Source: an uncultured Roseateles sp. (lineage in GTDB: Bacteria > Pseudomonadota > Gammaproteobacteria > Burkholderiales > Burkholderiaceae_C). Taken from it: DNA of 64,000 nt. The translations under genes were made by a program, and so were the position numbers. The stretch is from positions 62,001-126,000 of the forward strand of contig NZ_CAMFJS010000011.1 in the NCBI RefSeq assembly GCF_945956965.1. Reading direction: 5' to 3'. The notes under the pieces are model-generated. The model saw only the letters and a program-made list of their open reading frames with translations. It made no database searches and was not told the origin of the DNA. Shown here piece by piece: positions 14,041 through 27,015 of this stretch; the stretch's first letter is position 1; each line of letters opens with the position of its first letter.

Positions 14041-16428
14041 TTACTTGGCCGTGATCGTGATGGGCATATTGGCGCTGGCCTGGCGGCCGGCCGAGTCCAA
14101 CACCCGGATGCTCAGCACATAGTTGCCGGTGACGGGTGTGGGCCAGTAGGCCGTCACCGTCATGCCGCTGATCGAGAAGCCCATGCCCAGCGGCGCACCG
14201 GCAATGCTGATCGAGAGCCCGCTGACGCCCGGGTCAACAATTCCGATCGAGCCTGTCAGCGGCTTGCCTGCGACGCCGCTGAGGGCGGGGGCGGTGATCT
14301 GCGGGCCGCTGACCGGCGGCGTGGTGGCGGCCGCAATCTTGAGGCTGATCACGCCCGTGCCGCTCAGGCCGGTCTTGCTGTCCTTGGCCGTCACGTTCAC
14401 GCTATAGCTGCCCAGTACGGGCTTGGCCCAGCTCAGCACGCCGCTGGCGCTGATGCTCATGCCGGCCGGGGCGCCGCTGAGGCTGTAGCTCAGCGGGTTG
14501 CTGGCCGTGGTGCTCACGGTGTAGTTGAGCGCCACACCGGGCAGGCCGCTGATGCTGGCGCTGGCCACCTTGGGGGCGGCGGGTGCAGTGATGGTGACCG
14601 TGTAGACCGCTTGGCCGCTGAGCCCGGTCTTGCTGTCTTTGGCGCTGGCGGTGACGGCATAGCTGCCGGCCACTGGTGCGGGCCAGCTGACGGTGCCGTT
14701 CGCTGCGATGCTCATGCCGGCAGGCGCGCCGCTCAGATTGAAGCTCAGCGGGTTGGCGGCTTGCGCTGAGACGGTGAAGCTCAAGGGCGTGCCCACTTGG
14801 CCACTGATGCTGGCTGGGGTGAGTACCGGTGCGGTGCTGGCAATGGCGGCGCCCGAAGCCAGGCTCAGCAAGCTGGTGGCATTGGGCGAGCCCAGTCCCG
14901 TCGGGGTGTCATAGCCGGTCTTGGCGGCGCAGCTGGCGCAAGTGCCGTTGGCGCCCTTGCTGATGTCGCCAAAAGCGCTGGCGTAGTTGCCGGGCACGCT
15001 GGCCACTTGCTGATAGAGCAGGCCATGGGCGGCACCCAGCGGGGCCTTGCCGCTTTGCGCTCGCATCGCATTGGCCACAGCCACCAGGCCGGCCCACTGA
15101 GGCGTGGCCAAGCTGGTGCCGCCGGCGCTGATCCAGTTGATGCTGCTGCCCGACTGCACGGCCACGTACTGGCCGGTATTGGGGTCGGCGTTGAAGGCCA
15201 CATCGGCCACATTGCGGCGCACGGCCAGGCCCATGCCGGGCACAGTGCTGGCTTGGTAGCTGGGCGTGGCGGTGTATGCGCTGACGCCGCCGCCGCTGCC
15301 GGACCAGGCGGTTTCGGTACGCGCGCCGCTGCCGCTGTAAGTCAGGCTGCTGCCGCCCACCGCCAAGACATTGGGTGAGACGGCTGGCCAGGACACGCCG
15401 ACGCCCGAGTCGCCGGTGGCCGCGAGGTAAGTCATCTTGGCTGCGCTGAAAGCGGCATCCACCGAGGCGGTGTAATTGCCTTCGTTGGCGCCAAAGCTCA
15501 TCGACACCACGCCAGGGCCCATGGCATTGGCCAGCTTGACGGCGCCCAGCAGGCTGTTCAGCGATGCGTCCGCCGCTTCGATCAAAACAATGCGGGCCAG
15601 CGGCGCGGTGGCATGCGCCCACTGAACGTCCAGAGTGATTTCGGTGGCCCAACCGGCGTTGTAGGCGGGGACTGCGCTGGTCATGCCGCCGGCGGCGGTG
15701 CTGTAGACCTGTGAGAACTCGCAAGCATTGCTGCTGGCTGCGGCCAATGGCAAAGCGCTGGTGCTGGGCAGTGCCTTGGTGGTGCAGCCGGGCAGACCGA
15801 ACTTGAGGTTGAAGGCGGCCAGCTCGGCCACGACGTAGGGGTCGTGCATGGCATCGACGATGTAAATCGTCTGGCCGGCGCCAAGTTGCGCCGCTTGGGC
15901 GGCGCTCAGGACGCTGCCCGCAGCAGGCAGGGGCGGCAAGCCATAGGCCGCGCGGATCTGGGCCGGTGAGTAAGTGGACACGACCGAGGCCGTGGCCATG
16001 GGCGTCACGGTCTCGCCGCCCGCCGCCAGTGCGCGGGAGCGCTGGGCCGAGGCCAGTGTTTGTAAGGTCAGGCCACGGCTGGAGAGTTGGCTGAATTCGG
16101 CGGGAATGGCTTGTTGCCGGGCATGGCTGCGCGCGGAGCTTGATGGGTCTTGTGCGTCGCGGTCATCGGGCGCGTCCAGCAGCAGCGGCGCGGCATGGAA
16201 GCTGGGGCTGGCTTGCAAGGCGGCTGCGGCTTCGGGCAGGGCCTCGGTTGGCAGATCTAGCGTGGTGATGCCGGTGGCCAGTGGTGCGGCGCTGGCGCTG
16301 CTGGCTGGCGCCGCGAGTTCTTGCTTGCTGTTGTCGCCACCGCCGCAGGCGCTGAGCAGCAGGCCAAGGCTAGACGTGAGGAGCAAGGCGCTGCTGAGAC
16401 GGGCGCGGGATCCAGGGTACTGCTGCAT
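14041..16428 (-). CDS. Secreted S53 (sedolisin-family) serine-carboxyl peptidase lipoprotein with Ig-like repeats
   Basis: A 795-residue exported protease. The signal peptide ends in a lipobox (LLLSACGGG), predicting lipidation. An N-terminal propeptide-like region runs to about residue 150. The peptidase domain follows, with the Glu-x3-Asp pair in TEITLDVQWAHATAP and the nucleophile in GGTSLATPQWAGL; the oxyanion-type Asp probably lies in the FGDI stretch. The C-terminal part carries about three putative Ig domains with repeated SLSGAPAGMSI segments. The ATG chosen, giving MQQYPGSRAR, follows GGAG; the longer ORF runs through the riboswitch. It is controlled by a c-di-GMP riboswitch. Sedolisins are typically acid-active. 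Confidence 0.85.
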   Translation of the reverse strand: MQQYPGSRARLSSALLLTSSLGLLLSACGGGDNSKQELAAPASSASAAPLATGITTLDLPTEALPEAAAALQASPSFHAAPLLLDAPDDRDAQDPSSSARSHARQQAIPAEFSQLSSRGLTLQTLASAQRSRALAAGGETVTPMATASVVSTYSPAQIRAAYGLPPLPAAGSVLSAAQAAQLGAGQTIYIVDAMHDPYVVAELAAFNLKFGLPGCTTKALPSTSALPLAAASSNACEFSQVYSTAAGGMTSAVPAYNAGWATEITLDVQWAHATAPLARIVLIEAADASLNSLLGAVKLANAMGPGVVSMSFGANEGNYTASVDAAFSAAKMTYLAATGDSGVGVSWPAVSPNVLAVGGSSLTYSGSGARTETAWSGSGGGVSAYTATPSYQASTVPGMGLAVRRNVADVAFNADPNTGQYVAVQSGSSINWISAGGTSLATPQWAGLVAVANAMRAQSGKAPLGAAHGLLYQQVASVPGNYASAFGDISKGANGTCASCAAKTGYDTPTGLGSPNATSLLSLASGAAIASTAPVLTPASISGQVGTPLSFTVSAQAANPLSFNLSGAPAGMSIAANGTVSWPAPVAGSYAVTASAKDSKTGLSGQAVYTVTITAPAAPKVASASISGLPGVALNYTVSTTASNPLSYSLSGAPAGMSISASGVLSWAKPVLGSYSVNVTAKDSKTGLSGTGVISLKIAAATTPPVSGPQITAPALSGVAGKPLTGSIGIVDPGVSGLSISIAGAPLGMGFSISGMTVTAYWPTPVTGNYVLSIRVLDSAGRQASANMPITITAK

Positions 16429-16442
16429 GGCCGAGGCACTCC

Positions 16443-16491
16443 AAAAAAACTGGGCGAGGGCCACGCCGATGCAGTTGAGCTCGCGCTCGCC
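16443..16491 (-). terminator. Putative expression-platform terminator of the c-di-GMP riboswitch
   Basis: On the minus strand, GGCGAG (overlapping the 3' edge of the aptamer) can pair with CTCGCC about 27 bases later, followed after CAG by seven T residues (T-tract at 16443-16449). The ribosome site GGAG follows directly. The overlap of the left arm with the aptamer 3' flank is what a transcription-termination switch needs, but the pairing was judged by eye. Confidence 0.5.
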
Positions 16492-16572
16492 TGGCAACCC
16501 CGCTGCCATGGCGCTTGCGCGCTGTAGGCCGGTGGCTTTGCGTCCCCGCTTTTCAACGGGTTTGCCCTCTGA
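16489..16572 (-). ncRNA. Cyclic di-GMP class I riboswitch (GEMM-I)
   Basis: Read on the minus strand, the leader of the S53 protease contains AGGGCAAACC, a GAAA-type loop within CGUUGAAAAGCG, then GGGACGCAAAGCCACCGGCC, and a second hairpin ending GGCAGCGGGGUUGCC. These are the conserved blocks of the GEMM-I aptamer in the right order and spacing (known family: Rfam GEMM_RNA_motif, e.g. V. cholerae Vc2). The tetraloop that docks into its receptor and the strands flanking the ligand pocket are all present. It lies 61 bases upstream of the protease ATG, so it should couple protease synthesis to c-di-GMP. Confidence 0.93.
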
Positions 16573-16720
16573 ATCAAATGACTGCTGAGGCCGTGTCGTC
16601 GTCTCAGCAGTTCGATGGACTCTAGCCGCTGCTGGGTTTTGTGCGCATGCCGCCCGGCGGGAAGTGCCTTCAGGCGTGACTTAGTCAACAGCGGCGCCGT
16701 GGCGAAATGCGCCACACAAT

Positions 16721-25251: not shown

Positions 25252-26685
<1,434 letters not shown>

Positions 26686-26821: not shown

Positions 26822-26942
26822 AGCGGGTGAGCGCGGTTGCAATGAATCGGCACAAGAGCTGTTTCGGCTGGAAACGGCGGTGCAAGATTCGATCCCGAGC
26901 CTGGCCGCATGTTTGGCATGCGGTTGCAACGCTCCTCGGAAT
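26822..26942 (-). ncRNA. SAH riboswitch upstream of ahcY
   Basis: On the minus strand the leader reads CCGAGGAGCGTTGCAACC, a hairpin, CCAGGCTCGGG, a variable arm, then TTGCAACCGCGCTCACCC. These are the three conserved blocks of the S-adenosylhomocysteine riboswitch (known family, Rfam SAH_riboswitch; typical upstream of ahcY in beta-proteobacteria). CCGAG pairs with CTCGG, and GAGCG with CGCTC, as the pseudoknotted structure needs. A T7 run (plus-strand A7 at 26812-26818) and the complement pair CACCC/GGGTG follow and may form the switch. It is expected to turn ahcY on when SAH is high. Confidence 0.93.
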
Positions 26943-27015
26943 GCCGTGATTCTAGTCGCATTGCCGCGCTTGGTCGCAGGAACAGCGCGTGAATTGAAGA
27001 CAATCTCGACCCATC

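Follow-up and report, generated by a model that had tools for sequence, protein, structure and literature searches.

A probable c-di-GMP-OFF translational riboswitch in the leader of a secreted S53 protease gene

Does a c-di-GMP-binding leader RNA govern the synthesis of a secreted protease at this locus, and by which mechanism would it do so? The window (the whole 64,000-nucleotide stretch of DNA that was analysed) carries a GEMM-I aptamer followed, on the same strand and 61 nt from aptamer end to ATG, by the gene for an S53 lipoprotein protease. Comparison across dozens of species suggests that c-di-GMP would stop translation of the protease by means of a conserved hairpin that closes over the start codon. 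Feature positions are collected in Table 1.

The aptamer was identified with cmscan: a minus-strand match to Rfam family RF01051 (c-di-GMP-I), for which the gathering score is 35 bits, scored 85.6 bits, and its E-value, calculated for the whole window, was 1.7e-15. It was aligned over the full length of the model (positions 1-87). A GAAA tetraloop is present in the first stem-loop, and the ligand contacts, numbered as in Vc2 with an offset of 9, are canonical (G20 at 16566, A47 at 16539 and C92 at 16494). The GEMM-I aptamer that the initial annotation had placed in this leader is thereby confirmed; the annotation had proposed an Infernal search with the GEMM-I model as a check, and that search was significant. 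The highest score was obtained with canonical c-di-GMP-I rather than with the variant of the same clan, c-di-GMP-I-GGC (RF03167), which precedes S53 orthologues at loci L055 and L064, and the window aptamer is ordinary for its class. The host genome (5.0 Mb) holds three GEMM-I copies, among which this one scores best. The other two precede genes for a chemotaxis receptor (L002) and an ankyrin-like protein (L003). The ankyrin-like protein is secreted, and the L003 aptamer (contig C2:300664-300762) carries A at position 20, a feature of cGAMP-selective GEMM-Ib. The same genome gives about 60 GGDEF matches, so its c-di-GMP signalling is rich. Elsewhere on the minus strand of the window, an ordinary SAH riboswitch (26822-26943, 62.7 bits) lies upstream of an S-adenosylhomocysteinase gene (25252-26685).

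The identity of the protease was established by homology searches and by its catalytic residues. TPP1 was matched in a single-sequence search (E 4e-9), and a PDB search with a profile of 16 protease orthologues recovered kumamolisin-As (E 5e-31) and sedolisin (E 4e-20). Glu263, Asp267, Asp340, Ser439 and Asp488 are invariant in the 16 orthologues, and all but Asp488 align with the catalytic residues of kumamolisin-As. Membership of S53 was judged by the catalytic Glu, Asp and Ser (GTSxxxP) and the oxyanion Asp, all of which were found. The protein also carries the lipobox LLSAC, and the profile match, the invariant catalytic residues and the lipobox together bear out its earlier description as an S53 lipoprotein protease. 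With sedolisin and kumamolisin (PDB 1sio, 1ga1) and with TPP1 (3edy) it shares the catalytic Glu/Asp/Asp/Ser and the Ca-site Asp, but it differs from them in a short divergent N-terminal region, the lipobox and the C-terminal Ig-like repeats. Pfam and NCBIfam gave no significant protease match for the 795-aa protein, which the PDB profile search recognises as S53. At the N-terminus no Pfam match to a pro-kumamolisin activation domain was obtained, and approximately 115 conserved residues lie N-terminal to the catalytic domain. With a mean pLDDT of 67 the AlphaFold model is weak, and the top 50 Foldseek matches listed, Ig and cadherin-type chains, all fall in the C-terminal Ig-like part; the model was therefore not used for the protease domain.

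Table 1. Features of the protease gene and its leader, in window coordinates
Feature	Position	Strand	Basis or remark
S53 (sedolisin/kumamolisin-like) lipoprotein protease, 795 aa, C-terminal Ig-like domains	14041-16428	-	TPP1 and kumamolisin-As matches
GGCCAUGC, strand of the outer sequestor stem at the start codon	16425-16432	-	8 bp with 16459-16466; compensatory changes in relatives
Sequestor inner stem-loop	16437-16456	-	16450-16456 with 16437-16439 and 16441-16444 (RNAfold)
Shine-Dalgarno (SD) sequence GGAG, inside the sequestor inner stem	16439-16442	-	RNAfold
T7, supplies the loop of the inner stem-loop	16443-16449	-	RNAfold
Conserved block GCGUGGCCCUCGCC, common to both competing helices	16453-16466	-	Own consensus
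c-di-GMP-I (GEMM-I) aptamer	16490-16576	-	cmscan RF01051 and alignment to the model
GAGGGC, aptamer 5' strand, proposed anti-sequestor	16564-16569	-	Pairs with 16456-16461; 55 leaders

The pairing of aptamer and protease is widely kept. A GEMM-I aptamer lies just upstream of the protease orthologue in 6/6 Paucibacter genomes, that is, in all six genomes of the genus with an orthologue of at least 69% identity. The family sample comprised 351 genomes, with any GEMM-I in 101 and the protease in 32; Rfam c-di-GMP-I or c-di-GMP-I-GGC was found in the leader at 22 of the 30 protease loci scanned, and a purpose-built model added one further leader aptamer (L049) to these. Among GTDB species, the aptamer was upstream at 70 of the 80 closest protease orthologue loci, which include Janthinobacterium, Undibacterium, Rugamonas, Curvibacter, Acidovorax, Rhodoferax, Uliginosibacterium, Amantichitinum and others. 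At two of the ten remaining loci the contig is truncated and upstream sequence is missing or too short; at the other eight the conserved leader block described below is absent as well. Six orthologues without aptamer and block, from Duganella, Rugamonas and Oxalobacteraceae (L143, L151, L171, L174, L177, L182), have a short leader, in most cases with a GATAAT-like -10 element. A connection of c-di-GMP with extracellular proteolysis had been put forward from the sequence alone; it gains support from a pairing kept across so many genera, and it may well be real.

Leaders were read from the aptamer end to the start codon, and the block was located through its own consensus, independently of any complementarity. 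A block near GCGUGGCCCUCGCC (at least 9 of 14 matches) occurs in 64 of the 79 leaders analysed, 55 of them distinct, at 29-46 nt (mostly 31-39) from the start codon. It has two mutually exclusive partners, namely the aptamer 5' strand GAGGGC (helix A) or the start region GGCCAUGC together with the SD (helix B). Curvibacter relatives with AAAGGC aptamers have no block. Blocks of the GCGUGGCCCUCGCC type also stand before non-homologous genes, at L008 and in the S8 protease leaders L066 and L067. In the Paucibacter relative that carries L008 (G001:C23), two near-identical GEMM-I riboswitches (L008 and L015) lie 836 bp apart, each with the block and each before one of two paralogous small secreted proteins.

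Helix A joins the GCCCUC of the block to GAGGGC at model positions 8-13 of the aptamer, a strand that includes G20, G21 and C22. In the 55 distinct leaders, all taken in the same register, 316 of 330 pairs are standard, as compared to 106-207 in registers slid by 1-4 and to a mean of 305 and a maximum of 312 when rows were shuffled. Double changes that keep the pairing were found as GAAGGC/GCCUUC in three Rugamonas species, CAGGGC/GCCCUG in L050 and CUGGGC/GCCCGG in L159. Leaders L064 and L065, which lack the full block, have the double change AAGGGC/GCCCUU, and just four to five helix A pairs are retained in L194, L193 and L052.

Helix B consists in the window of the 8 bp GCGUGGCC/GGCCAUGC, and the hairpin that it closes has a minimum free energy (MFE) of -21.5 kcal/mol (z -3.4). 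Across the leaders GUGGCC pairs with GGCCAU, so that the start codon itself lies in the helix. Standard pairs number 270 of 330, and slid registers reach no more than 181. Double changes occur at -1 (L207), -2 (L212, L176) and -3 (L205, L196), and the covariation is modest because the outer columns vary little. The mean MFE of the sequestor hairpin across leaders is -15.3 (z -2.3). In the model the start codon is unpaired 0.23 of the time when the hairpin can form and 0.56 of the time when the block is kept out of it (P 4e-7); SD exposure did not differ significantly between the two cases (P 0.28). Two mutually exclusive helices, one over the SD and AUG and the other with the aptamer strand, both covarying, point to a translational riboswitch, and the existence of the two competing helices is supported by the comparison of leader sequences.

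Folding energies bear on how such a switch might operate. When nascent RNA was folded up to a point shortly beyond the block, before the SD and AUG are transcribed, helix A lay 0.6 kcal/mol above the free ensemble on average (window value 0.7 kcal/mol). Over the full leader, helix A is on average less stable than helix B by 1.2 kcal/mol (range -11 to +13), and in the window at equilibrium helix B lies below helix A by 7.7 kcal/mol. This difference rules out a preference of the ligand-free window RNA for helix A by simple thermodynamics; unless switching took place during transcription, OFF would be the default state. Because helix A is near the free ensemble in nascent RNA and helix B is ahead in the full window RNA, a co-transcriptional scheme is the most likely one, and we infer from it the ligand response and its direction. 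At low c-di-GMP, the aptamer 5' strand would capture the block during transcription, and helix A, once formed, would prevent helix B, leaving the start codon open and the protease made. At high c-di-GMP, the folded aptamer would lock its 5' strand and release the block, and the free block would allow helix B to close over the AUG and SD and turn translation off. A c-di-GMP-OFF translational riboswitch on the secreted S53 protease is thus what we consider probable for this locus, and with the protease off at high c-di-GMP, the lipoprotein would be at work while cells are motile or dispersing.

Control by termination of transcription has to be weighed against this reading, given that the initial annotation had regarded a stem and T7 in the leader as a possible terminator. 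The letters do exist, as GGCGAG...CTCGCC with a stem loop of 27 nt followed by T7, and c-di-GMP could be imagined to let this hairpin, or a GGCG..CGCC hairpin, form before T7 and end transcription ahead of the gene. T5-T7 runs, which in Paucibacter and a handful of other leaders come after the block, are consistent with such a transcriptional OFF switch, as is a perfect intrinsic terminator, GCCAGTCGATCGACTGGCTTTTTT, directly after the AAAGGC aptamer of a Curvibacter relative (L044/L150), from which it follows that termination platforms occur among the leaders of protease orthologues. In the window, however, the terminator scan made no call at 16443-16491 and on the minus strand reported just one terminator, that of the ompW-like gene upstream; the GGCGAG/CTCGCC stem is unconserved, the T-tract is absent in most orthologues that keep the block, and T7 forms the loop of a more stable hairpin covering the SD and AUG. 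An intrinsic terminator as the main mechanism was rejected on these grounds, the terminator proposal found no support, and transcriptional OFF control at this locus is unlikely. A weaker terminator was seen in a further protease leader with an AAAGGC aptamer (L042/L145). The protease regulon seems to have changed its type of platform in L044/L150 and L042/L145, and some orthologues may rely on termination, although the comparative evidence speaks against it at the window locus.

Two further explanations accept the aptamer and differ in what it does. An ON switch would have the ligand-free helix A hinder ribosome loading or expose the leader to Rho or RNases, with c-di-GMP raising protease synthesis; in its favour, the class I RNA Vc1 of V. 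cholerae acts as an ON switch and has neither a terminator nor an anti-SD (PMC4744006), and helix A ends only about 7-20 nt before the SD. Yet the block freed by the ligand forms helix B over the AUG and SD, which is itself repressive; two opposed helices, one of which sequesters the start codon, agree better with an OFF switch, and ON control is improbable. The dominance of helix B in the window at equilibrium even without ligand would also suit a relic or low-effect aptamer, with the start-codon hairpin merely setting a low basal translation. This is very hard to reconcile with the conservation of the aptamer core and ligand contacts across many genera and with the loss of the block along with the aptamer at eight orthologue loci, and we regard it as highly improbable. 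The translational OFF switch accordingly remains the reading that we prefer.

Repression of a secreted protease by a class I c-di-GMP riboswitch is already known from C. difficile, in which Cdi-1-12 lies upstream of the ZmpI metalloprotease gene and c-di-GMP lowers expression (PMC6200980). That system and the present leader share a class I aptamer before a secreted protease and, as predicted here, repression in the same sense; they differ in that ZmpI is a metalloprotease from another phylum and the target here is an S53 protease. With Vc1 and Vc2 of V. cholerae, whose platform mechanisms have been stated as unknown (PMC4744006), the window RNA shares the aptamer class and the contacts G20, A47 and C92. 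The target genes are different, and the S53 leader has two competing helices supported by comparison. In the literature searched, with partial coverage, no paper linked betaproteobacterial S53 or S8 proteases to a c-di-GMP riboswitch. As far as the searchable literature shows, the S53 target, the breadth of its conservation and the platform are new.

GEMM-I RNAs lead 65 other genes in the family, 28 of which encode S8 subtilases and at least seven Cache-type chemotaxis receptors. Ten of 27 S8 leaders (L009, L012, L013, L014, L090, L099, L106, L110, L112, L131) have C at ligand-contact position 20, normally G, and these aptamers could represent a variant that recognises its ligand differently. 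The C20 leaders read carry a second conserved leader after the aptamer, UGGCCUCG..CGAGGCA..AUG, the 5' part of which covaries with the aptamer 3' end (for example GUUGGC/GCCAAC in L106). It is conceivable, and proposed here tentatively, that class I riboswitches of Burkholderiales and neighbours make up a dedicated regulon of exoproteases, comprising S53 and S8 enzymes, with conserved leader platforms that close the start codon, and with C20 aptamers in the S8 branch that are possibly altered in ligand recognition.

The locus would tie a widely conserved secreted S53 protease to the second messenger of the motile/sessile decision, with repression at high c-di-GMP as the predicted direction, and it offers a platform, supported by comparison, for the class I c-di-GMP riboswitches of Gram-negatives. 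The large share of family GEMM-I RNAs that stand before exoproteases suggests a general control of extracellular proteolysis by c-di-GMP through RNA.
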